From Synechococcus sp. ROS8604 (GTDB taxonomy: Bacteria > Cyanobacteriota > Cyanobacteriia > PCC-6307 > Cyanobiaceae): 64,000 bases of DNA. The notes under the pieces are model-generated. The model was given only the letters and a program-made list of their open reading frames with translations, had not been told where the DNA came from and did not search any database. The DNA is taken from contig NZ_CP047946.1 of NCBI RefSeq assembly GCF_014279655.1, forward strand, positions 1,116,001 to 1,180,000. The letters are read 5' to 3'. This document shows positions 30,623-49,623 of the stretch, piece after piece. How positions within the stretch are numbered: position 1 is the stretch's first letter; the number at the start of each line of letters is the position of its first letter. The position numbers were made by a program, and so were the translations under genes.

Positions 30623-31224
30623 GGCTCTACCTGGATCGATGGGGCCGTCCGGTTGCGTGGAGCAGCCGTATCCACCTGTACTCCCTCTACCTGCACAACG
30701 GCCTCTGTTTCTGGGCAGTAAGCCGAGAGTTTTCCTCCATACACCGCACCCGTGTCAATCATCACGATCTGACCATGTCGCTCCACATCAGCTCGAGGGG
30801 TATGACCAATCACGACCAGTCCAAGGCTGCCGTCGTAATGCTCCCAGAAGGTCTCACGGATGGTCAGGTTGAGAGAACCATTGGCGTCGAACCCTGCGTG
30901 GGTTGCCAGCCATCCGTCTCCCTGAAAAACATCGGGGAGCTGATCCAGCCTCTTGAGCCATGGGCTGGGGCTGGTCAGGGACGCTTCGCTGACGGTCTGT
31001 AGGAGCGCCTGCTCATGATTTCCGCGCAGCCAGGTCGCCCGTCCAGCCGTGACTAAAGACCAAACCAAGTGCATCGTGGAGGGGGTATCGGGCCCACGGT
31101 TGATCACATCTCCGCAAAACACGACGTGGTCACTCTTTGGTAGAGCGCTGAGTAGGCGCTGTAGCGGTTGATAGCAGCCATGCACGTCTCCGATCACCCA
31201 GTGGTTGCACGGGAGTGATGACAT
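30616..31224 (-). CDS. Calcineurin-like metallophosphatase (PPP/ApaH-type)
   Basis: A two-metal phosphoesterase of the PPP family. It shows the signature GDVHGC near the N-terminus, GDVINRGPDT, RGNHE, and later THAGF and GHTP, the full set of metal ligands. At 202 aa it is closer to small PrpE/serine-threonine phosphatases than to full ApaH. The substrate, a phosphoprotein or dinucleoside polyphosphate, cannot be decided. It is the first gene of the run leading to recC. Confidence 0.9.
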   Translation of the reverse strand: MSSLPCNHWVIGDVHGCYQPLQRLLSALPKSDHVVFCGDVINRGPDTPSTMHLVWSLVTAGRATWLRGNHEQALLQTVSEASLTSPSPWLKRLDQLPDVFQGDGWLATHAGFDANGSLNLTIRETFWEHYDGSLGLVVIGHTPRADVERHGQIVMIDTGAVYGGKLSAYCPETEAVVQVEGVQVDTAAPRNRTAPSIQVEPC

Positions 31225-31277
31225 GCCAAACAGGCTATGGAGTCATCACATTAATTCCCTTTACTGGTACGAATGCG

Positions 31278-31565
31278 ATGCGTGGAAATGCTTACCCTAA
31301 TGGCCGTTGTGAACACGATGTGGACCCACGATCATTGCCAGTGGCTCGTCGCGTGAGCTTGCTCGTGAACGCTCTCGACGGTGCACAACGCACCAATGAG
31401 GCTCTCGCTGCTTGTACCAATGGCGAAGAGATGCTCGACGTGCTCCTGGACGCGTCGATGAAATTAAGGCTTGGCCTAACGCGAGAGCAGCTTCGTAATA
31501 CACCACCGATTCGAGATTGGGTTTGGTGGAAAAATAAGAATGCTCTGGTCACCATTGGAGATTAA
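31278..31565 (+). CDS. Conserved hypothetical protein
   Basis: A 95-residue protein from ATG 31278 (MRGNAYPNGRCEHD). The longest frame begins at 31215, overlapping the divergent phosphatase start, and is less likely. The middle is helical (ARRVSLLVNALDGAQRTNEALAACT), followed by LDVLLDASMKLRLGLTREQLRNTPPIRDWVWWKN. I do not recognise a domain. It is the last core-like gene before the AT-rich region. Confidence 0.6.
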   Translation: MRGNAYPNGRCEHDVDPRSLPVARRVSLLVNALDGAQRTNEALAACTNGEEMLDVLLDASMKLRLGLTREQLRNTPPIRDWVWWKNKNALVTIGD

Positions 31566-32117
31566 ATTTTCGCTTTTTTGCGAATCAGGTTGTCTCTATT
31601 TAGTCAGGCTTTTGACCAGTAATTTTTGAATCGATTTAAGGTAGTGCTTACTGTAGCTTTTGTGTTCTTGATAGTGATTCAGACAGCGAGATTTATTTTC
31701 TGTGTAGGCGAGTATGCGGCATCAATACTTCATGCAAAGGCTGCTTAGTGGCAAGGGACTTTTGGCGATGCCTGTTACTGCTCTAGGCATGAATTAAGGG
31801 CAAATGTAAATTAATTTGATGTCGTGTAATCTCAGTAATTTTCGGACTCTTTAAGGCAATGGTCAACATTGTCTAATGTTTATAATTCTCGACTGGCTGA
31901 ACAGCGGTTTCCCCATTGCCTAGCCGAGTTCTTCAACTATCTTCTCAATAATGTGGTCTGGATAGAACTTGGCGTTGTTCAACTTTGCGGACGGATCGTG
32001 ATCATTGGTGGCCTTATCTGAAATCTCATTTTTGGTCTCAGCGTCTACAAGCCACTGTCTCAGTCATAGCCTGCAGCTCGAACATTGAATAAGCCAGATT
32101 TGTTTCTCCGTCGCAGC
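31566..32117. other. AT-rich gap with one possible coding relic
   Basis: No intact gene is seen. On the minus strand, 31920 to about 32090, a frame without a start codon reads WLVDAETKNEISDKATNDHD and ends FYPDHIIEKIVEELG before a TAG. It has protein-like composition and sits after a short frame MFELQAMTETV in another phase, so it may be a frameshifted remnant of a small gene. Confidence 0.35.
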
Positions 32118-32119
32118 CG

Positions 32120-32320
32120 CTAGCTCACAAGATCTGCTTCTGAGGCTGCTTTAACTACTTTAAGGTCGACAAACGACGCAGGCTTTAAATGGTCGATGAA
32201 GTGAATGCGTGCAGCATCCGACTTAATCCATTCGTTGAGCTGTTCCTTGGTTTGATGCTCTGGGACGTTTAAATTAACCGTGATAGTGGCAAGCAGAGTG
32301 ATCTTTTGCGAGTAATTCAT
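32120..32320 (-). CDS. Small hypothetical protein
   Basis: A 66-residue ORF (MNYSQKITLLATITVNLNVP...). The composition, with alternating beta-like and helical segments and few rare residues, is protein-like, and it stands alone in an AT-rich stretch. It has no signal peptide or recognised motif. Probably a real small gene of the variable region. Confidence 0.45.
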   Translation of the reverse strand: MNYSQKITLLATITVNLNVPEHQTKEQLNEWIKSDAARIHFIDHLKPASFVDLKVVKAASEADLVS

Positions 32321-32517
32321 TGTTTAAAATTTGAGAGATGATAGCGATTGCTCGAGCGATTAATCAACGAGCATTGAGATTTCGTGTGTATTTATTCCAA
32401 TTGTAGGGGATGCAGCAATTCTTGAGATTAATCATGGGTACTATCCGCATTTTTTGAACCATAAGCTTTAAGTTTCTATGCTGTGTCGATAGTGGTTATG
32501 AAAATTAACATGAAGTC

Positions 32518-32649
32518 TCAATTGTGTTGATGGTAAGTTTTTTGGATTTTATTTGATTCTGAGGAGATCGCAATCATCGCCGATGCCGGTGATAGCAGTG
32601 CCGTCATTGCTGCTGAGACGAATAGGCCTTTCATGAAATGATGAAACAT
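32518..32649 (-). CDS. Micro-ORF with signal-peptide-like N-terminus
   Basis: A 43-residue ORF starting MFHHFMKGLFVSAAMTALLS and continuing PASAMIAISSESNKIQKT. From the internal ATG at 32634 it has a basic start, a hydrophobic core and an ASA cleavage-like site, leaving a mature peptide of about 20 residues. It may encode a small secreted peptide or be a truncated exported protein. The evidence is only compositional. Confidence 0.35.
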   Translation of the reverse strand: MFHHFMKGLFVSAAMTALLSPASAMIAISSESNKIQKTYHQHN

Positions 32650-32865
32650 GGTCCAGCGATGCTTAAGCAATGATGTGGCAACTGCGATTAATAGAAAACT
32701 GAGTTAAGAATCACAGGTCCACGCGATTGTGTTCGTTATCCTTATCAGGGTCCATCACTTTTTTGAAGTGAGTCATCCAGTCTCATTACTCGGCTGATTC
32801 AAGAAACTCAGTGAATAAAATAATCTGGATGAACTTATGAGGAGATGTTCAGTTGATATCTTTGA

Positions 32866-33108
32866 TTAAGAGCCTCCAGCACAATAACGGACACTACCCA
32901 TTATTCTTGAGGAGTCGATCACTTCACCTTGTTTCGATGAATTTTTAACATGATGAGCAATACAAGTGTTTTGGGATGATGCCTGTTTGGCAATTGGGAT
33001 GAGCAAAATAAATCCTCCTATTATTGCTAGTACTACCAAGCATTTTTCGGGAATTCTAGAAAGCGACATTTCAAAGGAAATTGATTGATATAGCCAATGA
33101 TACAACAA
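32866..33108 (-). CDS. Small membrane or exported protein, unknown
   Basis: An 80-residue ORF. A start at the internal Met (MSLSRIPEKCLVV) gives 67 residues with one hydrophobic helix (LVVLAIIGGFILLIPIA) followed by a polar tail holding two Cys (NTCIAHH, VRYCAGG). This could be a single-span membrane protein or a signal-anchored peptide. No family recognised. Confidence 0.4.
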   Translation of the reverse strand: MLYHWLYQSISFEMSLSRIPEKCLVVLAIIGGFILLIPIAKQASSQNTCIAHHVKNSSKQGEVIDSSRIMGSVRYCAGGS

Positions 33109-33604
33109 TTTTTGACGTGATTTGAGAAATAAAAGGCTCCCTACTGGTTGTGTTTTGACTTATGTCTTGTTTGATGGCAGCTAAAATCGTCAAAACACTA
33201 CTTGATGTTTTTGATTGGCTTAGATTAGTCTTGCGTCGAATTTAATACAGCTTCATAGCGCTTAAAGTATTATAATGCTTAATATTTGCTTTATTTAGAC
33301 ACTAAGTTTATGATAAGTGTCATACATTTTTGGCCCTAAATGTATTTGCCAAACCATGCTGTTTCATTCGGCCATGAGGCTGTATTAAATTCGATTCAAT
33401 CCCCTTCGCCGATTAGGCTAGCCGCTTTCTGATGTTATTAAAAAGATTCGAAGGTCTGATGAATGCAGATGATTTTGATTGATATGTATGATTTTTGTAT
33501 CGATTTGTTTGCTATGTAATGGTCGATTCTACCTGCTCAAGGTTGTTATTGTGGTTAAAGTCTTGGTGTCTAGCTTGTAAGCATCCTGATAGAGGTATGA
33601 TTTG
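33109..33604. other. AT-rich stretch without recognisable genes
   Basis: About 500 bp with many stops in all frames. The 74-residue minus-strand frame at 33512-33736 overlaps the better plus-strand gene at 33605 and is probably spurious. I see no RNA gene here. Confidence 0.4.
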
Positions 33605-34135
33605 ATGGTAATGGTCAGAAAGCTGATGACAGTCAAGAATTTCAAGCCAGCTAGTTTGAAGCAGCGTATTTCCTTTCTTGCCAAGCAAATCAAAACCAAG
33701 AAAACCCTTATTCAAAAACTTATTGATCAAAAGCATGAGCTAAGACAATCTTATATCGTATCAATGGAAAAAATGCGCCAGAATATAGTGCAAAAACACT
33801 CAGGAAATCATAGTATTCAAGACGATTATAATTTTGAAATCGTTCGCCTCGACAAGGAGGAGCAAGTCTTAACTCTTGAGGTCGATGAGCTTTTAAATCA
33901 AAGAGATCGACTTAATAAAAGTCTTTTAGACCAGAACACCGGCCTATTCATTTCCAAAAAGTTTATTTTAGCTTTTTTAACGTTTTCTTTTTTTGTTGTT
34001 TGCTTGGGATTATTAGTTACGCAAAAGCATGTCCTTTTTAGCATGTTCTACAACAGCAAGGAGTTCAGGATTAACAACCCCTTGATCTCAATGAACCAAT
34101 TTGTAAGGCAAATTTCCCGTTTACCTCTCAGATAA
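33605..34135 (+). CDS. Coiled-coil protein with one membrane helix, unknown
   Basis: A 176-residue protein. Residues about 15 to 115 are charged and heptad-like (LAKQIKTKKTLIQKLIDQKHELRQ; VLTLEVDELLNQRDRLNKSLLDQ), predicting a coiled coil. A hydrophobic helix follows (FILAFLTFSFFVVCLGLLV) and then a short polar tail. The low-GC codon use differs from the core genes and suggests acquisition. Possibly a cell-envelope or chain-length-type protein, but no family is recognised. Confidence 0.55.
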   Translation: MVMVRKLMTVKNFKPASLKQRISFLAKQIKTKKTLIQKLIDQKHELRQSYIVSMEKMRQNIVQKHSGNHSIQDDYNFEIVRLDKEEQVLTLEVDELLNQRDRLNKSLLDQNTGLFISKKFILAFLTFSFFVVCLGLLVTQKHVLFSMFYNSKEFRINNPLISMNQFVRQISRLPLR

Positions 34136-34495
34136 AATAACTTTATTCATCAGTAGCGTTGCAATTTTCTCACAGGGCTTGTGATTTATCTCAGCGCAGG
34201 TTTACCCCATATCCCTCGAATAGAACTAAATCTTGATCCAAACTGCTGAGTGATCTGATTGTCTCTCGCTTCTTCAACGAATAAAGGCACCATCTATGCA
34301 GATACCTGCTCTGCTGCTAATTGTCTTCCATGCTTCTCGATACCGATAATCAGCCCAAACCCTTGCAGTATTCGGCATCATTTACGATGCGACTCATGAG
34401 GGTAGGAATCACTATTGAATCTACTCAGTATGCCTTCACTCCTAGGGGCCTCTGCATTCACGCCACTAGCTGCCTGTGTTCGATCAGCTTTGCTG
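34136..34495. other. Gap without a supported gene
   Basis: Several overlapping short frames exist on the plus strand (from 34321 and 34415), but the latter run antisense into the sigma-factor relic at their 3' ends and have poor protein character. Nothing else is seen. Confidence 0.35.
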
Positions 34496-35316
34496 CTAGT
34501 TATTTTTTGCGCGCTCAACTTTCTGACGAACCCGCTCCCGGCTTATTCCAATTTCGTTAGCGATCGATTGAAGACTCTCTTCATCAATCACATGGCATCA
34601 TAGCAATTCTTGGTCATTATTTTGAGCTAATTTTGTTTGTAGTTCGAGGCTGTCTCGGACTGCTTCCCATTGGAATTTGTCGATGTAAAGTGTTGACTGT
34701 TCGACGCAGAGCATTTCACTTAGGGTTGAGCCATCACCATCACCCCCCAGTCTCATGTCTAGGGATGTGGTACAAGTGCATGGCGCAAGTTTTTAAGTTG
34801 TTCGTCGCTGATGTGAAGCTGATCACAAATCTCTGGATCGGTTAATCCTCTTGGTAAGTGATTGAGCTTGGTGATCAACTGATTCAGGGAGTACGGAACT
34901 CGGATTGTGGATCCTGTCTGATTGATAGCCCTGCTGATCGATTGGCGTATCCACCAGTAGGCGTAGGAGCTGAATTTGTAGCCCAGTTCTGGGTCGAATT
35001 TTTCGACTGCGCGGTTTAGCCCAATGCAGGCTTCCTGAATTCCATCTACCAACACTAGTTGGCCAAGTTGGCGATGCATGTATTTTTTTGAAACATTGAC
35101 CACAATCCTGAGGTTAGCCTTGATCATTCGATCTTTAGCTCTTTTCCAGCTCTTTTTTGGCTGCGGGTTGCCTTGGGTGACTGGCTTAACTTCACAGCCG
35201 TTCCGAGAGTGATCTCCTCTGCCGCTGTGAGCGATGGGATTCTCCCCATCTCGTTCTTGAATTGGTCGATATTGCCGTTATCCAAGAATGGCATTCAGAT
35301 CAGAGCGAGGTTCCAT
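34496..35316 (-). pseudogene. Group 2 sigma-70 factor (RpoD-like), shattered
   Basis: Pieces of one sigma factor lie in order in three frames. Region 1.2 ([23 protein letters not shown]) is read from about 35294. Region 2 ([47 protein letters not shown]) and the start of region 3 are read from 35127 to 34759. Then [19 protein letters not shown] and region 4.2 (SLQSIANEIGISRERVRQKVERA) lie in a further frame that also contains a TGA. The first frame change lies near A-runs at 35142-35158. Cyanobacterial group 2 sigmas control stress and nutrient genes. The size, about 820 bp, is near a full gene, so this is in-place decay. Confidence 0.85.
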
Positions 35317-35804
35317 CAAAGGAACTTTCGCGTGCGTTGCCCTTCCTTGATGTGAGATCCATCACCATTGGCATGATCCTGCTTTAGTACTTATGCAATT
35401 GCTCATAACTTTGTGGGGGGAAAGTCGGGTGAGTGGCAATTGTCAAAAGGAAGCGCATGACGAGCCCTCGGATCTGATGCTTCGGTGGCCCTTGACGGAG
35501 TACTGAAAAATGCTTGAACTTCAGCTTCAGGCAACCGAAATCATTGCAAGCAGCCTTCCCTATGTGTGCGACAGCTGCGTCAATACGCGCCGCAAGCGTT
35601 TGTTAATGGAAAAGAGTAAATTCAAATGGTCAATGAGACCCATCCTTTCGAGTGAATTGATCTTATCTCAATGGGTAACCTCGCCAAACCGCTTAGTGGA
35701 TTGACAGTTCTGAGGAATCTCTCAATATAAACCAGTCCAACTCATCAAGGGGTTGAATTCCTCACCCTTACTGAATACGGTTTAGCCGCCTTTTTATATT
35801 TGAC
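35317..35804. other. Gap holding a truncated paralogue of the 39.3-kb island gene
   Basis: A plus-strand frame from 35510 to 35704 (64 codons) contains MRPILSSELILSQWVTSPN, which matches MRLILSSEWVSTQWVISPN of the island protein at 39322-39705 and stops soon after. The matching DNA is listed as a repeat. The rest shows nothing recognisable. Confidence 0.55.
35631..35695 (+). repeat. 65-bp imperfect direct repeat, copy 1 (partner at 39374-39438)
   Basis: The segment from CAATGAGACC to CCGCTTA aligns without gaps to 39374-39438 with roughly 85 percent identity by eye. In the partner it codes for the middle of the small protein following the integrase; here it belongs to a truncated relic. Confidence 0.8.
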
Positions 35805-36061
35805 ATGAAAAGACTATTTCTATTCATTGCTTTGCTTACCGCTGTTCCTGCACATGCTGCAAGAAATGATTTGGTCAGGGCGTAGTCGCAATGGCGTGTG
35901 CAATGTTGGATTCAGGTTGTTCTCAGCGAAGAGTAGAAGGAGTATTAGATGTACTTGAACAACAAATTATTAGAAGCGGGATTAGTGAGCGAGTGTAGGC
36001 GCAAATGGCGAGAGGTTTTAATTATCAGGCTTCGAGAAACAACTGTCCATTGAGATATTGA
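35805..36061 (+). pseudogene. Frameshifted small secreted protein
   Basis: A clean signal peptide, MKRLFLFIALLTAVPAHA, is followed by ARNDLV and then a stop (TAG 35883-35885). One frame over, the sequence continues as GVVAMACAMLDSGCSQRRVE and GVLDVLEQQIIRSGISERV, with a TAG at 35996 and a final TGA at 36059. A one-base deletion at the LV/QG junction explains the break. The original was probably a periplasmic Cys-containing protein of about 80 residues. Confidence 0.55.
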
Positions 36062-36555
36062 TATTTTATTGAGTGGTTTGGATGTTTAGACCTTCCTCCT
36101 GAGAATTGTCTTCACTCCTGTCGCCTGTCACGGAGTCTGGTGGCTTCTCGAAACCCCTCGTCGAAACAATTGGGGGACGACTATTGCTTGGGCAAAGAGA
36201 CAGGGTTACGCCCCCCCCCCCCCCCCCCCCACGTCGATACTGGTTGGTGTTTGATTTTTTTAATGCCTTACACCACCAAATCTCGTGATTCTCCGGTCAT
36301 GCTCCGTATGTGAACTGGCAAGAGATACTCCGCTGAGATTCATTTCTTGAAGAGGTCACTAGTGGTAGAGAGAAGCATCTGCGCTAAAAACGGTTGAATT
36401 TTATATGGTCATCCTTATGCATGCGAGGTTTTTATCAACCACTGACTCTGTGAACAGCATTACTGCATTGCTGGATGATGGTCTTCACCTCAGCCCTTCA
36501 TTCGGGAGATGCTCTGTTCCTTGGGGTTCAATACCTCCATCATACTTATAAACCA
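36062..36555. other. Gap with a long C homopolymer
   Basis: No supported gene. The only longer frame (36106-36288) exists because the C20 tract reads as poly-Pro. The stretch just before 36556 should hold the promoter of the small double-glycine peptide. Confidence 0.4.
36211..36230 (+). repeat. C20 homopolymer
   Basis: Twenty consecutive C, preceded by ACG and followed by ACG. It is by far the longest homopolymer in the window. It could be a hypermutable tract or a site of assembly uncertainty. Confidence 0.95.
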
Positions 36556-36645
36556 ATGAAAAATTCCGAACTCACACTTGATCAATTCACCACTATTTCT
36601 GGCGGTGTAATTGAGGCTCTTGATGGGAGCACATGCATAAATTGA
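36556..36645 (+). CDS. Micro-peptide with a double-glycine leader (RiPP/class II bacteriocin-like precursor, probably a relic)
   Basis: A 29-residue ORF. The leader MKNSELTLDQFTTISGG has the ELTLDQ...ISGG pattern of double-glycine leaders cleaved by C39-peptidase ABC exporters. The following core, VIEALDGSTCIN, has one Cys. After the TGA the same frame continues (HLTKPLKMVLGGSTGSFNP) into an 8-bp tandem duplication at 36692-36707. Removing one copy gives PFDRNSDNNFFSSADLVLDDI and a stop at 36773, so a precursor of about 70 residues may have been broken twice. No intact C39 exporter is in the window. Confidence 0.55.
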   Translation: MKNSELTLDQFTTISGGVIEALDGSTCIN

Positions 36646-36691
36646 CATCTCACTAAACCTCTGAAAATGGTTCTTGGTGGAAGTACAGGAT

Positions 36692-36707
36692 CCTTCAATC
36701 CTTCAAT
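36692..36707 (+). repeat. 8-bp tandem duplication downstream of the leader peptide
   Basis: CCTTCAAT occurs twice in a row, then CCTT. Collapsing one copy joins the leader-peptide frame to a longer open frame ending at 36773. Confidence 0.85.
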
Positions 36708-36929
36708 CCTTTTGATAGAAATTCAGATAACAACTTCTTCAGCAGTGCGGATTTGGTCCTAGACGACATTTGAGCAAACGGCAACAAACAATGGAGTTCA
36801 AAGCTTCGCCATGAGCGGGGTTTTTTATGACCAACGCAGTTGTTTGATGGAAACCGCTCTATAGGTCTTTTCTTTAGCCGTGTTTTGTCTAGCGGTCTTC
36901 AGCAGGGGTTAGTCCACTTTCAACCCTTA

Positions 36930-37385
36930 TCAGTCGTCACCTCCATCAAGATCCATTGATTTGAGCGCGAGGTTTATGCGGTCTTCTGCTTCAAGTGCTT
37001 TATTCGGTCCTCTTGTCGCCCCATCAACAGCAATCTTGCCTCCGCTCTTGAATACCAGCTCTTTGCACATGTCATCAAACACATCTGCTGCATTTGGATG
37101 CCGCCTGAAATAGTCGGCAAGCCATCGGTTGACCTCCTCCGGTAACTCGACATCACCTATCAGCTTCTTGTCAAGCACTGCTCTCGCAAACGAGACGGAT
37201 GGCTCCTCTTCCGGTGTTTCAGCCTCAGCGATCACCCTGACCTTCACTTCAAAGGTCTGTGCAACCTTCCAGAAGTCAACACCTGGGTAAGCGTCTTCCA
37301 AAAATGAGGCTTCGAGTTTCATTGCTCTACTTTCGGCGCTTAGTCGGTTTTTTAGTGGTTGATTGATAGACAAAGGTCTTACCAA
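36930..37385 (-). CDS. Hypothetical protein of the older mobile element
   Basis: A 151-residue frame. ATG 37322 (MKLEASFLEDAYPGVDFW) gives 130 residues and is the more natural start. The protein is acidic and helical (ELPEEVNRWLADYFRRHPNAADVFDDM; EAEDRINLALKSMDLDGG), without signal or membrane segment. It resembles small phage or plasmid proteins in style, but no family is recognised. It sits just left of a degraded island gene and the left att repeat, so it probably belongs to the earlier insertion. Confidence 0.6.
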   Translation of the reverse strand: MVRPLSINQPLKNRLSAESRAMKLEASFLEDAYPGVDFWKVAQTFEVKVRVIAEAETPEEEPSVSFARAVLDKKLIGDVELPEEVNRWLADYFRRHPNAADVFDDMCKELVFKSGGKIAVDGATRGPNKALEAEDRINLALKSMDLDGGDD

Positions 37386-37559
37386 ACAAGACCGACCTCT
37401 TCACTCCATTGTTACCAAATTTGGCTTCTGTTGGTGTCTCAGCGCTCCGGTTCAACCATTGCCCTATGCCACTCGATGTTCAGCGATCGATCCACTGCCT
37501 TTTACTTAGTGACGCTGGACCACTACGGTTCCATCTCTTGGCTCGTTGCTTCTGCTCCG

Positions 37560-37660
37560 CCCAAACCGGGTTCATTGAGCAAGCAACGTGATCGTTTCAA
37601 TGGCGTTGATTTTTCTGCCTTGCTTGCCAGCCTGTCCGTGCGGTCGATGTCAACATGATT
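37560..37660 (-). pseudogene. Degraded copy of the small HTH/terminase-like gene at 46069
   Basis: On the minus strand the frames read HVDIDRTDRLASK, then (another phase) QGRKINAIETITLLAQ*TRFG. These match VDIDRTDMLASK and SGRENNAIGAIRLLAELTGFG of the intact protein at 46069-46404. About 36 bp between the two blocks is missing here. This paralogue relic lies about 50 bp left of the att repeat, as expected for the right end of an older related element. Confidence 0.7.
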
Positions 37661-37677
37661 AGCCTTAGCGATCAATG

Positions 37678-37697
37678 CTTTGTACACCACTTGCGCC
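37678..37697 (+). repeat. Degenerate terminal repeat of the older element's right end
   Basis: CTTTGTACACCACTTGCGCC aligns with CTTTGCACACATTTTGCACA at the right end of the island (from 49597), at the same distance from the conserved CTGCAGGCAATAAAAA that opens both att repeats. It looks like a decayed recombinase arm site. Confidence 0.55.
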
Positions 37698-37704
37698 AAT
37701 CACT

Positions 37705-37818
37705 CTGCAGGCAATAAAAAAGCCGCCTTGGGTGGGCGGCTCATATGCCAGTGCTGGACTGACTGGTTTTGCAGTCGGGGTGACAGGATTCGAACCTGCG
37801 ACATCCTGCTCCCAAAGC
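37705..37818 (+). repeat. att direct repeat, left copy (tRNA-Pro 3' part plus terminator)
   Basis: About 114 bp nearly identical to 49624-49736, starting CTGCAGGCAATAAAAA and ending CTCCCAAAGC. It contains the tRNA-Pro terminator hairpin (37721-37741) and, from 37775 or 37776, the 3' half of tRNA-Pro on the minus strand up to the anticodon. Beyond 37818 the sequence departs from the tRNA, so this copy is not a functional tRNA. It marks the left boundary of the integrated element. Confidence 0.93.
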
Positions 37819-37920: not shown

Positions 37921-37942
37921 TTTTGCACACATCTTGCACACA
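37921..37942 (+). promoter_or_regulatory. Possible integrase arm-type sites, left end
   Basis: Two copies of TTGCACAC, spaced by about one helical turn, lie between the left att repeat and the integrase start. Nearly the same sequence stands at 49598-49619 beside the right att repeat, with an inverted GTGTGCAAAA at 49569-49578. Their position at both ends suggests binding sites for the recombinase or an excision factor. Confidence 0.6.
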
Positions 37943-37969: not shown

Positions 37970-39118
37970 TTGCCACGCATCAGTCAAATTGAGCCTTGGG
38001 TGAAGCCCTTTAGGGACCAGATAAAGGTGTCTTGTGGACCTGGTTGGAAGGTGCTGAATAGTCGTGGAACGATGCGACTTCAGGTCGTTGATGTGGGGTC
38101 AGTGATGCTCCCTTACGAGTGGACGCTGAAAGGATCAACGCAAGCCTTGCCTCGTATTCAGCAGATCTTTAAGCGTTGGGATGGTGGACGCGTCACCCTT
38201 ACTGCTGCATCGCAAATCGCCAACACAAGCAGTTCACATCAGAAACTCGATTTCACTCAGTTAGTTGATGCTTTTCACAAGTTCGTTCCTTATGCAGGCG
38301 AGAAAACGTGGAAAGAGAATTACGTGCCTGTTCTCCGCAACTGCCGCGAGCAATTCAAAGACCGCCCCCCAGTGGACGGTGAAGCTCTTTGTATGGCAGC
38401 ACTGGCGCAATGGGAACAGGGCACAAGGATGCGACAAATCAGCCGCAGAGTCCTTTCCAAGTTCTTGGATTGGGCGGTGCAAAGGGGTCACCTAAAACCC
38501 ATCTACAGCCCACCTGCTCGTTTGCCTGAAACGTTGAAGCCAAAGCGGATTGGATACCCCCTGAGCGATGCACAAATCCTTTCCTTGATTGAATCAATCC
38601 CTGACCCCCGATGGCAGTTCGCCGTTCAACTGCTCGCCGTATACGGGTTACGTCCTGAAGAGTTGCGTTGGTTGCGAATCAAGGATGGTGCTCTTTGGTG
38701 CATCTATGAAAAATCAATGGGTGGCATCAAAGGTCAGAAGACAGAACCCCGTCGCTTGCATCCGTTGTTTGTCCGTGATGTAGATGGCACCGCTATTGAT
38801 TGGAAGCTTCAGGCACGACTTCAAATCGGTGAGGAATTGCCGCCATTGAGAACTGAAGGGAAAGGTGCTCAAGCTGTCACTTCATATCTGCGAAGACGTA
38901 AAACCTGGATGGCAATGATTGAGGAGGCAGACCATGCAGGTGAACAGCTCACGACTTACTCATTCAGGCATCGCTATGCCAAAGAAAGCCATACCAACAA
39001 CCTTCCTGTCGCCAATATCGCTGAGGCAATGGGACACACGATGGAAGTTCATCTGAAGAACTACGGCAGGTTCAAACCATCAGGAACAGGCAATCTCTAT
39101 GCCGAGGTGAATGTTTAA
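37970..39118 (+). CDS. int: Tyrosine recombinase (integrase)
   Basis: Site-specific recombinase that would integrate and excise the island at tRNA-Pro. The 382 residues comprise an N-terminal DNA-binding half and the catalytic domain: Arg228 in YGLRPEEL, Lys near KSMGGIKG, Arg333-His334 in YSFRHRYA, His356 in AMGHTM, and the nucleophile Tyr365 in HLKNYGRF. The first His of the usual HxxR box is Tyr here, which occurs in some phage integrases. The start is a TTG, because a TAG directly precedes it in frame. The frame is intact, so the element may still be mobile. Confidence 0.93.
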   Translation: MPRISQIEPWVKPFRDQIKVSCGPGWKVLNSRGTMRLQVVDVGSVMLPYEWTLKGSTQALPRIQQIFKRWDGGRVTLTAASQIANTSSSHQKLDFTQLVDAFHKFVPYAGEKTWKENYVPVLRNCREQFKDRPPVDGEALCMAALAQWEQGTRMRQISRRVLSKFLDWAVQRGHLKPIYSPPARLPETLKPKRIGYPLSDAQILSLIESIPDPRWQFAVQLLAVYGLRPEELRWLRIKDGALWCIYEKSMGGIKGQKTEPRRLHPLFVRDVDGTAIDWKLQARLQIGEELPPLRTEGKGAQAVTSYLRRRKTWMAMIEEADHAGEQLTTYSFRHRYAKESHTNNLPVANIAEAMGHTMEVHLKNYGRFKPSGTGNLYAEVNV

Positions 39119-39349: not shown

Positions 39350-39705
39350 AGGAACAGGGCTTACCCGAACGGGCAATGAGACTCATCCTTTCGAGTGAAT
39401 GGGTCTCAACCCAATGGGTAATCTCGCCAAACTGCTTGATGTGGCAGCAGCAGCCTGATTACGCCAGATACAAAGAGAAGTCCAACGGTGAAGGCTGGCT
39501 GGTCAACAGACAGGAAGGGATGCTCCTGCAGATCAAGCCAGATGCGCCAACCCAACATGCTCAGTTCGTTCTGGTGAGCTACTACCGCTTGTCAGCTCGC
39601 ATTGGGAAACCCATCAGGCAGCAAAGGATGCTGAGACACCTAGGCATCGAGATGTGGATCAACCTGCAGAAGATCGGTTGGCAACGCTGCTCATCGCCCA
39701 ACTGA
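39322..39705 (+). CDS. Hypothetical island protein (paralogous relic at 35.6 kb)
   Basis: A 127-residue protein from ATG 39322 (MAALEDERLKEQGLPERAM). It contains RLILSSEWVSTQWVISPN near the N-terminus, a central YARYKEKSNGEGWLVNRQEGMLLQIKP, and a C-terminal helical half. A longer frame from 39172 overlaps the membrane-protein gene and is unlikely to be used. A truncated paralogue at 35510-35704 shows that this family came with more than one insertion. Function unknown. Confidence 0.55.
   Translation: MAALEDERLKEQGLPERAMRLILSSEWVSTQWVISPNCLMWQQQPDYARYKEKSNGEGWLVNRQEGMLLQIKPDAPTQHAQFVLVSYYRLSARIGKPIRQQRMLRHLGIEMWINLQKIGWQRCSSPN
39374..39438 (+). repeat. 65-bp imperfect direct repeat, copy 2 (partner at 35631-35695)
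   Basis: Aligns without gaps to 35631-35695. Here it lies within the small gene after the integrase. Confidence 0.8.
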
Positions 39706-40859: not shown

Positions 40860-41219
40860 TTGCCCCAAACCAATGACCCTCGACACTCAGATTACTCTCG
40901 CTCTACTTCAAGAGCTGCTGATGGCTCTGGCGTACTCGGACGCTTAGCCTATGAAATGACCAGTGGCGTCACAGCAGGAGTAAATGTCTCCTATGACGAA
41001 GCATTCGATACAAGAGTTTCAGCTGATCTTAAAGTGCGCTTTGGTGGCCCAAGTACAACAGCAGCTAAGAAGAAAAAGTGGGAGAATCCAACTATCAATG
41101 CGTTAACAGCATCACCCAAGAATAGGGATGTGAGGGTGCATGATAAAACAGGAGATGGTAGAAAGTGTATTTCGGATCAATATGTTACTGTTAATTGTGG
41201 TCCTCAACCAGGTTTTTGA
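40860..41219 (+). CDS. Outer-membrane beta-barrel fragment (inverse-autotransporter-like), N-terminally truncated
   Basis: The 119-residue frame opens with a TTG directly after a terminator. Residues about 20 to 62 (GVLGRLAYEMTSGVTAGVNVSYDEAFDTRVSADLKVRFGG) have the alternating pattern of the last strands of a cyanobacterial inverse-autotransporter-type barrel. A soluble tail follows with a Cys pair (KCISDQYVTVNCG). There is no signal peptide and too few strands for a barrel, so this is probably the 3' end of a larger gene moved or cut by recombination. Confidence 0.5.
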   Translation: MPQTNDPRHSDYSRSTSRAADGSGVLGRLAYEMTSGVTAGVNVSYDEAFDTRVSADLKVRFGGPSTTAAKKKKWENPTINALTASPKNRDVRVHDKTGDGRKCISDQYVTVNCGPQPGF

Positions 41220-42340: not shown

Positions 42341-42622
42341 ATGGTAAGTAGCACCAAACGCTTTAAGCAGCATCACCAAGCTGTCTGTACTGAACTCGAT
42401 GGCGATGTAGCTTTATTTCAAAGCAATACCTGCGACTATCTTGTTCTTAACGAGACAGGCTCAGCCATTTGGAATGCACTCAAGACTCAGCCAACACTGC
42501 CTGAACTTTGCAAGTATTTGGAGGAGGAATATGAAGTCACTCCAGATGAATGCAAGTCCGCTATCGAAACTTGGCTGGAAGCGGCATTAGATAAAAAAGT
42601 GATTGCCGTGGTTGATGATTAA
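42341..42622 (+). CDS. PqqD-family peptide-binding protein (RiPP recognition element)
   Basis: A stand-alone PqqD-like domain of 93 aa (DGDVALFQSNTCDYLVLNETGSAIWNAL, then LCKYLEEEYEVTPDECKSAIETWLEAAL). Such domains have the winged-helix fold that binds the leader of ribosomally made peptides and presents it to modifying enzymes. It is convergent with the GNAT gene, their stops overlapping by 4 bp, and the neighbouring minus-strand operon encodes an HPr-kinase-like protein and a sulfotransferase. No precursor peptide or radical SAM enzyme is seen nearby. Confidence 0.85.
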   Translation: MVSSTKRFKQHHQAVCTELDGDVALFQSNTCDYLVLNETGSAIWNALKTQPTLPELCKYLEEEYEVTPDECKSAIETWLEAALDKKVIAVVDD

Positions 42623-43185
42623 AACGAGAAATGCGTTTTTAGCTTTCTTACCCAAATTTCACCACCAAGTTGATTTCCTCCAAGCATTTGGAACCCAAGT
42701 CGTGCAAAATAACGGCGCATGGATGCTTTCTGCAAGCCAGGATTAATGTTTTCAGATAGTAATACTTTTGCTCGATGATCACGCTTTTCTACTTCACGAT
42801 AAAACCCTTTAAGGAATGCTCTAAAGAGCTGATTTGTCAGACGTGGATTCCTGGATTCTGGAATTACATACATCCGTTGAAAGTAGGCATGGCTTCCAAG
42901 CTCTAGTGCAGTTTCTAGCTCTCGTAATACGACAAATACAATGCCGTTAATTTTGCCTGACTGATCACGTGAGATTGCGGCTGGCTGTCTCGATATAGGC
43001 TTTTTAAGTAGACCCATGCGCTTCTGGTTATTGCTTAGTGTTGCTCGAAACGACTTCAATTCTTCTTGATGTGGCTTGCCATACTGTATCCAGAAAGCTT
43101 TCAACTCATGTTTTAGCTGATTATTCACCTCTCCAAACACGAATTCAATGTGAGGATCAGTCAACTTCTGGACCCTCATATTCAA
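42619..43185 (-). CDS. GNAT-like N-acyltransferase
   Basis: A 188-residue protein with GNAT character: INGIVFVVLRELETALELGSHAYFQRMYVIPESRNPRLTNQLFRAFLKGFYREV matches beta strand 4 and the acetyl-CoA helix, and a late RRYFARLGFQMLGG matches the terminal part. The start overlaps the sulfotransferase 3' end by 29 bp (less if the second ATG is used), so it is the third gene of a minus-strand operon. The acceptor is unknown and could be a peptide or sugar amine. Confidence 0.7.
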   Translation of the reverse strand: MNMRVQKLTDPHIEFVFGEVNNQLKHELKAFWIQYGKPHQEELKSFRATLSNNQKRMGLLKKPISRQPAAISRDQSGKINGIVFVVLRELETALELGSHAYFQRMYVIPESRNPRLTNQLFRAFLKGFYREVEKRDHRAKVLLSENINPGLQKASMRRYFARLGFQMLGGNQLGGEIWVRKLKTHFSF

Positions 43186-44038
43186 AGCGATTCATCACGT
43201 CAGACAATCCCTTAGCGAGTCGCTTTCGCTGCTCAATTGAAAGCTGTTGTGCTCCTTCTCCTGTGCGCCCTGAGCGAAAGAAGCGTTCACAACCGGCAGG
43301 CTTTTCTGCAAAGCCATTAACATCTTCCTCCAGCTTCTTGAGTCGATCGATGGAGGTATTTTCCAGTGCTTGATCAATTAGATGAGCGTCATTCGGGAGG
43401 CCCAAAAAGGTTGCTAATTTAGTGAATGTTTCTGATCCTTTTGCCAACATATCCTCATAGCGCATGATCAAGACTGGAAGCTGAGTTTGATCAGCCCATG
43501 AGCGCACATGTTGATCCCAGCGGCCCATGTGTTGTCGTACTTGATGGCCGCCAAAGCGTTCCCCTGGCACCAGCGCTGCATTGGGATCCAGTAGGGAATC
43601 AACGCATCGATCCAGCGGCCATGAGAAGAAGTGACTAAGTGATACAGCCACATCTTCCGGGTGGCGCAGGATATAAACAACACCAGAGCAACCTGTTGTA
43701 CTCACCACCGGGCGCCCACGCGAATCAGGAGATTTAAATGCATCATGCACTTTATGAAATCGCTCTCCTTCTGCGAATAGCCATGCACTCGCACCAGCAC
43801 GTCCGCGCATGGGATCGAGTTCGCTAAAACTGAGATCACAACTATTAATTCCTAATTGATCGTCCAGCCAAAGTCTTGATGAGGCAATCGCTCCAGTTTC
43901 AATATCTTGATTAAGATTTAATTCTTCTTCAGGATTGTCTCCTGCCAGCCTCATTAATTCAGTAATAAAAACCCTGCATCAGGTGTTGCCTGATTTTGGA
44001 TACGAGGCTAAATACCAGTAGCTGTTATCTTCAGTCAT
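43157..44038 (-). pseudogene. Sulfotransferase with a TGA in place of the PAPS-loop Trp
   Basis: The start ATG at 44038 overlaps the end of the upstream kinase-like gene by 8 bp. The N-terminus reads YWYLASYPKSGNT, the 5'-phosphosulfate-binding loop, and codon 20, where the family has Trp, is TGA (43979-43981). The frame then continues uninterrupted (CRVFITELMRLAGDNPEEEL) for 273 codons, with GVVYILRHPEDVAVSLSHFF (the 3'-phosphate-binding Arg/Ser region), PVLIMRYEDML, and FRSGRTGEG near the end. Apart from this one codon the gene looks intact. Either a single Trp-to-stop mutation or UGA readthrough fits. Confidence 0.85.
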
Positions 44039-45041
44039 TGCTTGCGTCCTCTTCTGTAGCTTCTCTGCGCTGTTGCATCGATTCGGGTTGCATGAGGTCC
44101 ACCTCCTTGAGGCTTTCGGCCATTGCTTTGATTCCATCTGGAACGATCAAGGCATGCAATGGCACCGTTCGAGCTAGTGCAGCTGCCTGCATAAACAATT
44201 GAGCTTCTGCGTCCATGCCTCGATACATCCTGGCGTGAAAGGCTTGGTTGCGCAGGCGCATTAAGGCATTTGTTTGTGAGAAATTTCGTGAAGCCTTAAG
44301 AGATACTTTTTCCATTTCATCTCCTGCCTCATCGGCATCCTCCTCTTTACCTGAATCTTCTTTGGCGCGATTTAAGGCATAGATCAGCCGTAATGGTGTT
44401 GGCTGTGGCATGCAAGTTAACTCTTCAGCTAGCAATGCATATCGCTTAAGTCCCTTTCTTACAGGTTGTAGCTGTGCATAATCCAATTCCAAGGTCATAG
44501 CAGCGTCGTACCAGAGCTTGAGTTGATGCATCCCTGGCTGAACTATCCCATCACTGCCAACGGCAACTAGCTCACTACTGAGTAAGTGCCAACCTTCTTG
44601 GATTAAACACCAGGCCAGGGTGGACTTTCCTGCAGCTGGATGGCCCAATAAGAGAATCGCCTCTCCGTCACGCTCCAGAGCTGTTCCATGCAAAACCAAC
44701 GCGCCACGCTGGATCGCTAGGGCTCCAAGCCCACTGGTTACAGCAAACGTGCGGATGTCGCGGTCGCTAACGCTGTCGTCCCAGCGCTGCCATTCCAAAC
44801 GCTCACCACCAGTGGCACGAAACCAGCCAATGCCTTCCAGTTCTAGGCGCCAATCCTGGGGTGCTAACTGCAGTGTTGGCGTGCTGTGAGGGCTCGGCTC
44901 AAGGCTGGGCCATTGCTCATGATCTCCCTGTTGGATTTGCACCAGCGCATTAATGGTCGATTCGGAGACGGTCAGTTCAGGTAAAACCAAATCACTGCTG
45001 ATCTCTGCCCCAAGGGCGCAATAGCGATGAGGTTTAATCAA
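44031..45041 (-). CDS. HPr-kinase-like P-loop protein of RiPP/PqqD type clusters
   Basis: A 336-residue protein with the Walker A GHPAAGKST (133-141) inside GALVLHGTALERDGEAILLLGHPAAGKSTLA, the arrangement of the HPr serine kinase C-terminal fold. LHGTAL and HLLSSELVAV (a Walker-B-like position) follow. Relatives occur beside PqqD and lasso-peptide genes, where some phosphorylate peptide serines. It is the first gene of the operon kinase-sulfotransferase-GNAT. The acidic insertion near residue 230 is unusual. Substrate not known. Confidence 0.75.
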   Translation of the reverse strand: MIKPHRYCALGAEISSDLVLPELTVSESTINALVQIQQGDHEQWPSLEPSPHSTPTLQLAPQDWRLELEGIGWFRATGGERLEWQRWDDSVSDRDIRTFAVTSGLGALAIQRGALVLHGTALERDGEAILLLGHPAAGKSTLAWCLIQEGWHLLSSELVAVGSDGIVQPGMHQLKLWYDAAMTLELDYAQLQPVRKGLKRYALLAEELTCMPQPTPLRLIYALNRAKEDSGKEEDADEAGDEMEKVSLKASRNFSQTNALMRLRNQAFHARMYRGMDAEAQLFMQAAALARTVPLHALIVPDGIKAMAESLKEVDLMQPESMQQRREATEEDASND

Positions 45042-46053: not shown

Positions 46054-46068
46054 GATCGTCTTCTTTCC

Positions 46069-46404
46069 TCATCGCTTGTGCTCCACTCCAAAGCCGGTTA
46101 ATTCCGCCAGCAACCTGATTGCCCCAATGGCATTATTCTCCCTGCCTGATGCAACACTATCCCGTGCGATCTGTTCAAGCATCTGAACCTTGCTAGCGAG
46201 CATGTCAGTGCGGTCTATATCAACGAGATCGTCCTTCACTACATCCCTAGCTTCGCGGATATAGAGATTGGCTGAATCTTCACTGAGCCCCCATCGTTGC
46301 TGAACATGGCGCTTTAGCTCACGTTGTGAATAACCCTTGACGATCAGGTCAGCCAGTTCTTCTATGCGAGCTTTCTTTTCGACTTTGGTACATTTTTTTC
46401 CCAT
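46069..46404 (-). CDS. Small HTH protein, phage terminase small-subunit-like
   Basis: A 111-residue protein. The N-terminus is basic, with a homeodomain-like helix-turn-helix (ELADLIVKGYSQRELKRHVQQRWGLSEDSANLYIREAR), followed by a helical oligomerisation-like part (VDIDRTDMLASKVQMLEQIARDS, NNAIGAIRLLAELTGFG). This arrangement matches small terminase subunits or their relatives in phage satellites. A degraded paralogue lies at 37560-37660. It follows the primase-helicase gene on the same strand by 57 bp. Confidence 0.65.
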   Translation of the reverse strand: MGKKCTKVEKKARIEELADLIVKGYSQRELKRHVQQRWGLSEDSANLYIREARDVVKDDLVDIDRTDMLASKVQMLEQIARDSVASGRENNAIGAIRLLAELTGFGVEHKR

Positions 46405-46460
46405 GAGATCAGGCTAAATAGGTCAAAAGGAAGAGATGAAGGTGAACTGGTGACGAGCGA

Positions 46461-48740
46461 TCAGATTTCTTCGTCATCGTCGAACTCGTAGACGGGTGGA
46501 CCTTCGGCAATTAATGCCTTGGCTTGTGCGCCGGAGATGGTGCGCTTGGTGACGTGTTGAAACTTGTTGGCGATCTGAACAGGCAACAAACCAGGGCTGT
46601 CTTTGACGATTTTCCAGAAGGCATCGGTGTGATCGTTCAAGGAGTGGGGAGAGAGAGACACCCCGGAAAGGTCTGGGGTGTTTTGTTGGAAGTCATTGCC
46701 TTCAGCTGTTGAAGGTTGGATGCACATTGGAAGTGTTGTTAGAAGTTCAGGAAGTAGTGGTGAACTACCTTCTTCACCTACTTCCAACATTTCTTCCTCT
46801 TTTATTAGGGGGTGTCTCTCTCTTGTTTGAACCCCTTTCTCTTTTTGTGGCTTTTGTTGGAAGCTATTTCTGAACTCATGCGGCATGAAGTACAGACCAG
46901 CAACCCCTTGGCGTGGCTTTTGAACTAACCATCGACGGCAAGCAGTGTCACGACCGACAGAGCTTCTGAGGGTGTTTCCTTCATCAGAAGAAAGCCCCAT
47001 CAACTGTTCTGCATCACGAAGCCCGATGGGCTTCTCTTGCAGCTTCAAAAGGTTTTGAAACTTGGTCCGCCAGCTTTGGTCTGGAGCCATGTGACTCAGA
47101 TCGGAATCAAGAGTCCAAGCCCAACCGTTTGGCAGCCCATCAATCAGCTCAGTCCTTTGAACTCGTAATTGCCAAAGGATGCCTGTTTCACGCTTCTTGT
47201 CGGTCTGAAGAGTCCGTAGCTCCTCCTCTCCCTCTACCTGCTTGAGATTGAACAGACCCCACACACCTGCAGGGGTGTCTTTTGTTCCGCTTGCTTTACC
47301 TCCACCATTGTTGTGGTGAATGATGATTCCAGACTTGCCGCAATCATTGATGAACTTGGCAATCTTGCGAATCACCAGCTTTCCGAAATCAGCGTGATTT
47401 TCATCAACGCTCAGGCTGCGTGCGACAGCGCGAGCAGAGTCAACAATCACCAGATCAACGTTGTTGCGGATGAGGAGCTTCAGCTGTTCAACGTGACGCC
47501 CCTTTGCAAGATCAAAGGTCTTGCTAAAAAACCAATCCTTTCCAACCTCTAGCCCAGGATGGAATTCACTTTTTGCCATGCCAATCGCTTTGACGCGACG
47601 GCTGAAAGTGCCACCTTCCTCCAACTGAAGGATTAACGGGACACCTTTGGCAATTGGGAAGCCAAGGAAGTCAGAACCTGTTGCTACAGCATGAGCAATG
47701 GAATAACAGAGCAGTGATTTGCCTGTACCCGGGTCAGCACTGATAACAATGGTTTCTTCCTTTGGCAGCAGGAATGGGATGACCCAACTGCTGTCGATGT
47801 CGTCATCGCCTTCGAGGTCTTCTGCACTCCCAAGGAATCCGTTTTCAGTGGTTCCAGCGCGGCAATCATCGATGTCAGCCAGAAGCTGACTGAATGGAAT
47901 CCGCAGCTTGGTTGCAAGCACCCTGCAGGTGTCATCAACGGTCTGAACATCACTTACTTCAGCTAATGCCTTCACCAGACGTTTGCGCTCAGCTGGGGTG
48001 TAGCTGCGCTTCAATTCACCATCGTGTTGCAGCAAAGGCGCTGGCAATGGCCATCCTTCGACCTCTGCAGCATCTAAGTGCTCCTGAAGAGCTTCTGCTC
48101 CATGTCTTACCAGGAAATCATCGGCGCCATTCTTGGCACCGTTTGGCTCGCTAGGGAGCGTGCAGCGGTGTGGTTTTGCTCCACGCTTACGGGTCCAATT
48201 GCCAATATCTGTGGCGGCATCATCAACACTGATGTTGTCTTCAATGTCGGAGTCAAAAAGGATGATGACCTTGCGACCACGCATCGGAATCGTCTTTAGT
48301 TCAGGCAAAAGATGGGTGTCATTGTCTGGATCCCAATTGCCCTTTTCGTCACGGCAATCTTTGGTGTTCCAAGTGCCTGTCAGACCGACAAAGCAGAACC
48401 CTGTTGGGATGTGCTCGAAGCAACTATCAACCTTGACTGGACCCTCAATAAATACCAGCGGGGTGTTGATGTTGTCGAGGTAACCCTCTGGCATCAACGG
48501 GCTGAAATAAGGTCGCGAACCACTTCCTTTTGGCGCTTTGAATTTGGGCTTACCTGTAGGGAACAAACGTCTGACGATGTAATCATCGCCGTTGCTGTCT
48601 ATGTATGGCTTGCCCTCAGGGTCGAGGTAGCGAATACCAAGATGGCAGCCATCACTGAAATAATTGTTTTCAGGCAGCTCTGTTTTGACTCCTCTTTTTC
48701 TCAGGTATTCGACGTGATCTTTTCGGAGCTTTGGCATCAC
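46461..48740 (-). CDS. Primase-helicase type replication protein (Toprim-like DUF3854 plus RepA-like ATPase)
   Basis: A 759-residue protein. The first about 230 residues resemble the DUF3854/Toprim-like primase domain (VFIEGPVKVDS, VIILFDSDIED with the acidic metal site near residue 163). Residues about 320 to 560 form a RecA-fold ATPase of the RepA/AAA_25 type, with Walker A ADPGTGKS (335-342) and Walker B LVIVDSARAV. The C-terminal about 150 residues are Pro/Ser-rich and end in a winged-helix-like segment (PVQIANKFQHVTKRTISGAQAKALIAEG). It probably initiates autonomous replication of the excised element. It overlaps the upstream gene by 4 bp. Confidence 0.8.
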   Translation of the reverse strand: MMPKLRKDHVEYLRKRGVKTELPENNYFSDGCHLGIRYLDPEGKPYIDSNGDDYIVRRLFPTGKPKFKAPKGSGSRPYFSPLMPEGYLDNINTPLVFIEGPVKVDSCFEHIPTGFCFVGLTGTWNTKDCRDEKGNWDPDNDTHLLPELKTIPMRGRKVIILFDSDIEDNISVDDAATDIGNWTRKRGAKPHRCTLPSEPNGAKNGADDFLVRHGAEALQEHLDAAEVEGWPLPAPLLQHDGELKRSYTPAERKRLVKALAEVSDVQTVDDTCRVLATKLRIPFSQLLADIDDCRAGTTENGFLGSAEDLEGDDDIDSSWVIPFLLPKEETIVISADPGTGKSLLCYSIAHAVATGSDFLGFPIAKGVPLILQLEEGGTFSRRVKAIGMAKSEFHPGLEVGKDWFFSKTFDLAKGRHVEQLKLLIRNNVDLVIVDSARAVARSLSVDENHADFGKLVIRKIAKFINDCGKSGIIIHHNNGGGKASGTKDTPAGVWGLFNLKQVEGEEELRTLQTDKKRETGILWQLRVQRTELIDGLPNGWAWTLDSDLSHMAPDQSWRTKFQNLLKLQEKPIGLRDAEQLMGLSSDEGNTLRSSVGRDTACRRWLVQKPRQGVAGLYFMPHEFRNSFQQKPQKEKGVQTRERHPLIKEEEMLEVGEEGSSPLLPELLTTLPMCIQPSTAEGNDFQQNTPDLSGVSLSPHSLNDHTDAFWKIVKDSPGLLPVQIANKFQHVTKRTISGAQAKALIAEGPPVYEFDDDEEI

Positions 48741-49132
48741 CCTTGTCCCCCATCAACTAGTTGATCAAGGGTTGTCTCCTCGTAGATCTCGATGGCTTGT
48801 TGGAGATGCTTTAGTTCTGCGGCTCTACGTTCGTCTTCTTTGCGCACCGCTTCAACAGTCCGTCGACGCTGCATCTCCCGAATTGCAGGGATGCAATAGA
48901 GGACAGGTCCACCGATGGATCCTGTTGCATAAACCCAATGCGTTCCAGGATCGAGACTGCGCTCACGGCGCATATTTCTAAGGGTGCTGGGCTTTAAAGC
49001 CAAAATCTTTGCGGCTTCAGGCTCATGCACCCATTCAGGAATGTAGTTCCCTGCTCTTAATCGGTCCCCAGATTCGCTCGAAATAGGCGCAGATTTCTGG
49101 AGAGTCTTCTGGCTTAGATGCGTTGATGACAT
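48737..49132 (-). CDS. Small HTH protein, excisionase/MerR-like
   Basis: A 131-residue protein. Its central part WVHEPEAAKILALKPSTLRNMRRE matches the helix-turn-helix of HTH_17/excisionase proteins, in which a Pro-Ser-Thr-Leu turn precedes the recognition helix. The tail is a charged helix (RRRTVEAVRKEDERRAAELKHLQQAIE). It overlaps both neighbours (4 bp with the primase, about 96 bp with the next gene). It likely controls excision or element genes. Confidence 0.65.
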   Translation of the reverse strand: MSSTHLSQKTLQKSAPISSESGDRLRAGNYIPEWVHEPEAAKILALKPSTLRNMRRERSLDPGTHWVYATGSIGGPVLYCIPAIREMQRRRTVEAVRKEDERRAAELKHLQQAIEIYEETTLDQLVDGGQG

Positions 49133-49424
49133 CTTGAGCCTCCTGCCTTAATTCGGCAGAGGGCCATCCTTCAGTTTCAAGAATTTCTATTTGAAGTGCT
49201 CGAAGAAACCCGTTGATCTTGTAATTCAACAGATCCCCTTTTTTGCTTTCGCCTTTCATGTCTTCAAGACGGCAACCGACAGCGGTTTGTCTTCTGACAA
49301 ACCTACGAGCCGCTACTGGATCAACATCCTTGGGGATGTTCAAACGTGATGCGCGCCGACATGCAATCGGCTTGCTCATGTAGGACTCCAGGGAGCCTTC
49401 AATCGGGCGTGGCTCAATCAGCAC
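49035..49424 (-). CDS. Hypothetical protein at the island's right end
   Basis: A 129-residue frame. An internal ATG at 49379 (MSKPIACRRASRLNIP) is an alternative start. It is basic at the N-terminus and helical after (LLNYKINGFLRALQIEILE; SPEICAYFERIWGPIKS). It overlaps the HTH gene start by about 96 bp, typical of compact phage-like modules. It is the first gene read inward from the right att repeat. No family recognised. Confidence 0.55.
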   Translation of the reverse strand: MLIEPRPIEGSLESYMSKPIACRRASRLNIPKDVDPVAARRFVRRQTAVGCRLEDMKGESKKGDLLNYKINGFLRALQIEILETEGWPSAELRQEAQDVINASKPEDSPEICAYFERIWGPIKSRELHS

Positions 49425-49568
49425 TTCAAAAGATTTGGTCTGATGGATGACGCGAGTGACGAAAACGGCGGTCCAGGGGCACTGATGCGGCTATTTCTGT
49501 CGGGCTCAATGAGCTTGTTATCAGTATGGCGAGGGTGCCCGTAGGTAGGGCGTAACGCTCGGAAAGTC

Positions 49569-49619
49569 GTGTGCAAAACCAGTCCCTCACTCAATGCTTT
49601 GCACACATTTTGCACACAC
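49569..49619 (+). promoter_or_regulatory. Possible integrase arm-type sites, right end
   Basis: An inverted copy GTGTGCAAAA (49569-49578) and a direct pair TTTGCACACATTTTGCACAC (from 49598) mirror the repeats at 37921-37942. They lie just inside the right att repeat. The same location in the older copy carries a decayed version (37678-37697). Confidence 0.6.
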
Positions 49620-49623
49620 CACC

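Follow-up and report, generated by a model that had tools for sequence, protein, structure and literature searches.

It is very likely that the genomic island at the tRNA-Pro(tgg) gene of this Synechococcus genome arose by serial integration, with an older element of the same family having entered at the gene and decayed before the present island was inserted at its end. The stretch of DNA analyzed here (the window, 64,000 nucleotides; G000:C1:1116001-1180000) lies in a 2.88-Mb single-contig genome (G000), and the genomes with which it was compared belong to the same genus or family. The features that bear on this history are collected in Table 1.

Table 1. Features of the tRNA-Pro(tgg) locus, in window positions.
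Feature	Position	Strand	Basis
Backbone common to related genomes, outside any element	31600-32379		Colinear matches in G005, G007, G013, G019, G020 and G023, and in G232
Stretch without G232 counterpart (458 unrelated bases there); holds DUF1651 fragment 35608-35694	35421-36807		G232 alignment
ORF of 151 aa adjoining the relic	36930-37385	-	Four of 300 genomes have it, each of the same genus
Remnant of the stretch directly downstream of the HTH gene, G007-island type	37440-37535	-	Shuffle-tested similarity to G007
Small HTH gene remnant (3' part), disrupted by internal gap and frame changes	37536-37654	-	Blocks against 46062-46147 and 46188-46224
Deletion junction; live-element 46225-49590 (~3.35 kb) without counterpart	37655-37671		Positions of flanking blocks
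Arm-like site of the old element, decayed; corresponds to 49591-49634	37672-37716		80%, 40.1 bits
Displaced element-type terminator and tRNA-Pro 3' half; formerly the right end of the old element, now the left att of the present island	37717-37818	-	96% against 49635-49736; terminator class; end of G232 alignment
TTGCACACA pair adjoining the integrase, putative arm site	37922-37942	+	95% identity to 49598-49618
Tyrosine integrase of the present island	37970-39118	+	PHROG integrase, 1.3e-18
Small HTH-type gene, intact, counterpart of the remnant	46069-46404	-	phrog_34910, function unknown
Primase/helicase-like gene	46461-48740	-	DUF3854 and AAA_25, both above Pfam cut-offs
Small regulator, weakly excisionase-like	48737-49132	-	HTH_17 19.6 bits (below cut-off 27); phrog_66 E 0.0018
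TTGCACACA pair at the right end, putative arm site	49598-49618	+	95% identity to 37922-37942
Right repeat copy: terminator and tRNA-Pro 3' half, from the present island	49635-49736	-	96% against 37717-37818
Intact tRNA-Pro(tgg)	49692-49766	-	ARAGORN

The present island, of ~11.9 kb, carries at both ends a direct repeat of the tRNA 3' end (102 bp at 96% identity, with 45 identical nucleotides of the tRNA), its integrase adjoins one att site, with 152 bp between its start and the tRNA fragment, and a close relative, G232, has the site empty. The match of the integrase to Pfam Phage_integrase, at 19.2 bits, is under the cut-off of 27.1, and its three named relatives are Synechococcus records. The label of the small HTH gene comes from the preliminary description of this DNA, and no Pfam family matches the gene above its cut-off. 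The interior carries genes for an EamA transporter, an IS200-like transposase, PqqD and sulfotransferase, together with a weak match to HPr kinase; we saw no conjugation genes in the island. The same island core is found at the same tRNA in G007, where the integrase is 97%, the primase/helicase-like gene 92% and the right-hand 3.7 kb as a whole 91.7% identical, with a mostly different interior; a shared core with different cargo suggests that the island is, or has been, mobile. Regarding the cargo itself, the PqqD, sulfotransferase and weak HPr-kinase matches fall within 42341-45041 and are perhaps a peptide-modification cassette, the sulfotransferase appears to be split, with its YPKSGNT start in a separate ORF, and three more similar copies (67-72%) of the stretch at 40983-41151 occur within the G007 island. 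We rejected a phage origin for the island, given that neither the integrase nor the primase/helicase had relatives in viral contigs in single-protein scans, which reach close relatives only. A search of phage DNA with 31.5-37.9 kb of the window gave 233 records; among the 20 listed, 17 show a tRNA-Pro gene and two a sigma factor gene, and one has no annotation.

To the left of the island, window positions 32400-37716 were compared with the island interior by word-7 blastn, with 200 dinucleotide-preserving shuffles as the null (best match 38.3 bits, 95th percentile 31.9). Four same-strand blocks exceeded the best shuffle, so that there is similarity beyond chance outside the repeat, as a comparison of 31-38 kb with 38-50 kb had been expected to reveal. 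The highest scoring of these (82.4 bits, 86%) pairs 35625-35694 with 39368-39437 and is a DUF1651 block. Two blocks match the HTH gene, 37536-37620 with 46062-46147 (72%, 44.6 bits) and 37618-37654 with 46188-46224 (84%, 41.0 bits), leaving in the remnant an internal gap of about 40 bp relative to the live gene, and the fourth pairs 37672-37715 with 49591-49634 at a score (40.1 bits, 80%) that none of 5000 simple shuffles reached. These last three blocks, from 37536 to 37715, are arranged and oriented as in the live element and run up to the 102-bp repeat. Similarity beyond the stop codon of the HTH gene, as far as about 37440, exists against the G007 island only: 37440-37535 scored 64 there, the highest of 2000 simple shuffles being 34, whereas against the G000 island, whose cargo differs at this point, it is at chance level, with 1079 of 2000 shuffles reaching the score. 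The preliminary description had noted a paralogue of the HTH gene at 37560-37660 and a likeness immediately to the left of the att; both matches are real, but the former extends further to the left and the latter begins at 37672 and not at 37666. The relic that can be demonstrated is thus about 37440-37818, only ~0.38 kb, rather than the 35510-37818 originally proposed. Neither an integrase nor a left att of the old element was found left of 37.7 kb. The third partial tRNA-Pro copy that the preliminary description proposed to look for did not appear in 31.5-37.7 kb either, where no 45-nt stretch has 24 or more matches (the best per shuffle in 20 shuffles being 22-25). Taken against the right end of the live element, these remains support the view that the relic on the left of the island was once the right-hand end of an older, related element, and its arm-like block (37672-37716) may formerly have been an integrase arm site.

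The order of events could be read from G232 (L166, L167), the flanks of which are 97.4% (21.1 kb on the left) and 97.5% (5.5 kb on the right) identical to the window, and which, having no island at tRNA-Pro, provides a natural empty site. G232 is colinear with window positions 31000-35420 (87.2%) and 36808-37818 (91.6%), and the alignment stops at 37818, precisely at the edge of the tRNA fragment, after which G232 runs into its intact tRNA-Pro. The HTH remnant, which in G232 still matches residues 55-111 of the HTH protein at 40% (E 1e-5), the deletion junction, across which the alignment of the two genomes is unbroken, and the decayed arm-like site are all present in G232, and there the relic lies directly against the intact tRNA-Pro. 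Comparison of the locus across strains, as advised in the preliminary description, therefore yielded a genome with the relic and without the island, and since the alignment ends at 37818 the relic is older than the island. On this evidence both the arrival and the decay of the old element preceded the entry of the present island and the split between the lineages of G000 and G232, and the order would be the same even if G232 had formerly carried the present island and exact excision had since removed it. At this locus the att of a related element already in residence thus received a second insertion, which is what defines tandem accretion, with the order supplied by G232.

Further evidence came from the terminators downstream of tRNA-Pro, which were compared at nine sites over 63 bases. 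Two classes were apparent, within each of which 56-61 of 63-64 positions were alike: a first, element type, comprising both G000 copies (left and right), the right copy of G007 and G232, and a second comprising the displaced copy of G007 together with G005, G013 and G023. Between the classes, 41-49 of 66-70 positions were alike, and the terminator of G020 fell outside both. It follows from these classes that the G007 island entered beside a tRNA of the second type and the G000 island beside a tRNA that was already of the element type. The marker is imperfect, as arm-like sequence adjoins the second terminator type in G023 and part of the G232 hairpin (GGGGAGG) is common to the second class. 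In G043 and G165 the terminators on the two sides of the island are alike, so a long repeat is not by itself diagnostic.

The empty site in G232, the terminator type and the colinear HTH and arm-like remains strongly support the central claim of the preliminary description, in which the left att marks where an earlier related insertion had its right end and the island came later. As far as comparison of the sequences goes, the order of events, the element-type end and the colinear remains are all directly given by it, and we propose the following history. A first element of the family would have integrated at the tRNA-Pro 3' half, whereupon the tRNA gene took the 3' half and terminator of the element. 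During the decay of this element its integrase end would have disappeared or changed beyond recognition, and the loss of about 3.35 kb would have joined the old HTH gene to the old right end. The old terminator and tRNA 3' half would have remained identifiable, presumably owing to their use by the tRNA gene, and we infer that the terminator was kept by selection. A second element of the same family would then have crossed over within the tRNA 3' half, the end of the dead element acting as attB, and this insertion would have supplied the tRNA with a new 3' half and terminator (the right copy), the previous ones coming to lie 11.9 kb away (the left copy). Both insertions were presumably made by the integrase family of the island, for which the TTGCACAC pairs are the probable arm sites.

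The same observations might be explained by a single insertion if G232 were a deleted version of the present island, which decayed there and had its end duplicated only in G000. The colinearity of the relic with the right end of the present element would agree with this explanation; it is nonetheless very improbable, given that a single insertion yields no second HTH gene outside the att, that the relic and the full island stand side by side in G000 and differ by about 20% outside the repeat, and that beyond the HTH stop codon the remnant resembles the G007 type and not the G000 island. A second explanation is that the two att copies of a single island underwent gene conversion, which overwrote the left copy and made it look like an element end, and the fall in identity from 96% in the 102-bp repeat to 80% in the adjoining 44 bp is such as a conversion tract might leave. 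However, neither the arm-like block nor the HTH remnant beyond the repeat would arise by conversion, and the single copy with an element-type end in G232 largely refutes it, so that we give this explanation very little credence. Finally, the blocks outside the repeat are, the DUF1651 block excepted, short and of moderate identity, as chance similarities might be, but the probability that they are so is practically negligible: four of them score above the best of 200 shuffles, three are colinear into the same att and the sister genome G232 has them.

While serial integration accounts for the relic itself, it does not extend to the gene-poor region at 31.6-37.7 kb, which nested accretion had been thought to explain. 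The segment 31.6-32.38 kb is backbone common to six related genomes and 32.4-37.4 kb is nearly without element matches, the only ones to exceed the shuffled 95th percentile being the DUF1651 piece and a 20-bp terminator-like match to the live element. Identity to G232, in 500-bp steps, is 83-91% at 31.5-35.4 kb, 96% at 37.0-37.5 kb and about 95-99.6% in the flanks; since the zone of low identity includes shared backbone, it marks little-constrained DNA and not island origin. The likeness of 35631-35695 to 39374-39438 that had been attributed to an island gene is real (86%) but not island-specific. DUF1651 is a dispersed family with 10 matches in this genome, one of them within the island, and stretches similar to the fragment occur at four other places outside the window, although its best relative among the matches listed is the island copy (86%). 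Because the stretch is also absent from G232, where later loss is possible, the fragment is unproven as a gene of the old element. The zone between the backbone and the relic is variable and decayed, and nothing links it to the old element, except possibly the ORF at 36930-37385, which in G232 is the neighbour of tRNA-Pro. The dN/dS values of this ORF (0.34 and 0.37 against G020; 0.65, on 13 differences, for G000 against G232) indicate at most a weak constraint, and its homologue and an HTH remnant have the reversed relative order in G020; found in 4 of 300 genomes, it is a candidate rather than a proven gene of the old element. The G020 homologue (L042 2714-3190) lies about 1 kb from that other HTH-gene remnant (73%, 33 aa), near a gene that by eye is ParA-like and about 16 kb from tRNA-Pro, and is perhaps part of a further fossil end. 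Elsewhere in this region, a sigma-70 factor gene at 34759-35294 is split into two ORFs (regions 1.2 and 2) and is also present in G232, at about 90% identity. There is also a run of 20 C at 36211-36230, within the stretch absent from G232, and a short ORF at 36558-36645, to which similar stretches occur in G020 and G005; it has no family match and contains what we take to be a double-glycine-leader-like sequence.

A search with the integrase gave matches in 120 of 201 genomes of the family, and its surroundings were compared in 13 genomes (G000, G007 and the 11 next-ranked). Twelve of the 13 full-length integrase loci are preceded by a tRNA-Pro 3' fragment of 43-47 nt, which lies upstream at 152-364 bp from where the integrase match begins. 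The exception is one of two integrase loci in G099, with no such fragment in 20 kb; the truncated integrase of that genome has one. More than one partial tRNA-Pro copy was found in at least three of the 13 genomes (four copies in G056, two each in G096 and G042), a lower bound because some of the contigs compared end early. Among 31 genomes of the genus, the tRNA-half form seen here, allowing for at most two mismatches, occurs in nine, and in three of them (G000, G007 and G233) in two copies. In G056 (L162, G056:C4:116001-136000) the four 3' copies lie in about 6 kb, the last of them 152 bp before the integrase, which looks like serial accretion. In G008 (L046, G008:C10), an intact tRNA-Pro(tgg) has broken integrase pieces (60% and 72% identity) at a distance of about 0.5 kb, probably the remains of another one-ended dead element. 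In G233 (L164 and L165, G233:C8), where two 3' copies are 17 kb apart and only a distant integrase match (33%) adjoins the tRNA, a different element may be using the same tRNA-Pro site.

Stacking of islands at a tRNA gene by tandem accretion and decay is already known as a general process, and what sets the present case apart is an unusually clear event order. Tandem accretion of integrative elements with decayed neighbours was reportedly described by Pavlovic et al. in 2004. Unlike a CIME with both att sites, the older element here is one-ended, its far att having been lost and only one end found. In the accretion of ICEs, IMEs and CIMEs, as outlined in PMC5704250, an element inserts at the 3' end of a target gene, the resident decays and a further element enters the att by the target gene; the course of insertion, decay and insertion is the same here, but the host is a picocyanobacterium and the island lacks any conjugation genes that we could see. 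The tandem islands at ssrA of Dehalococcoides, as they are summarised in PMC3146451, likewise stand several in a row at one RNA gene, with 3'-end repeats and modules of separate histories, but involve a serine recombinase and the tmRNA gene, in contrast to the tyrosine integrase and tRNA-Pro found here. A tRNA border, a tyrosine recombinase and variable cargo are also shared with the tycheposons of Prochlorococcus, whose size, given as 4-200 kb, spans that of the island (outlined in PMC10872708) and whose definition further involves seven tRNA genes and a set of core genes, and genomic islands of marine Synechococcus are themselves already known, as stated in PMC2441476. A search of the literature for tRNA-Pro genomic islands and integrases in cyanobacteria returned titles on other organisms or general topics, and we do not claim that this locus is absent from print.

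The merits of the locus lie in its clear order of events and in a sequenced relative where a dead element's terminator still forms the end of the tRNA gene. With G232 representing the state before the second insertion, the two genomes form a before-and-after pair for island turnover at a picocyanobacterial tRNA hotspot. The locus also suggests that the end of an element can outlive the element as the end of a host tRNA gene, and the type of terminator on the tRNA side may reveal islands that have vanished. Whether this extends to the lineage as a whole is, in our judgment, evenly balanced: mobile elements would time and again have overwritten the 3' half and terminator of tRNA-Pro(tgg) in these picocyanobacteria, at least one sequenced relative (G232) would have a tRNA gene ending in a dead element's terminator, and tRNA-side terminator types would thus be a readable record of past insertions, including those whose bodies have vanished.
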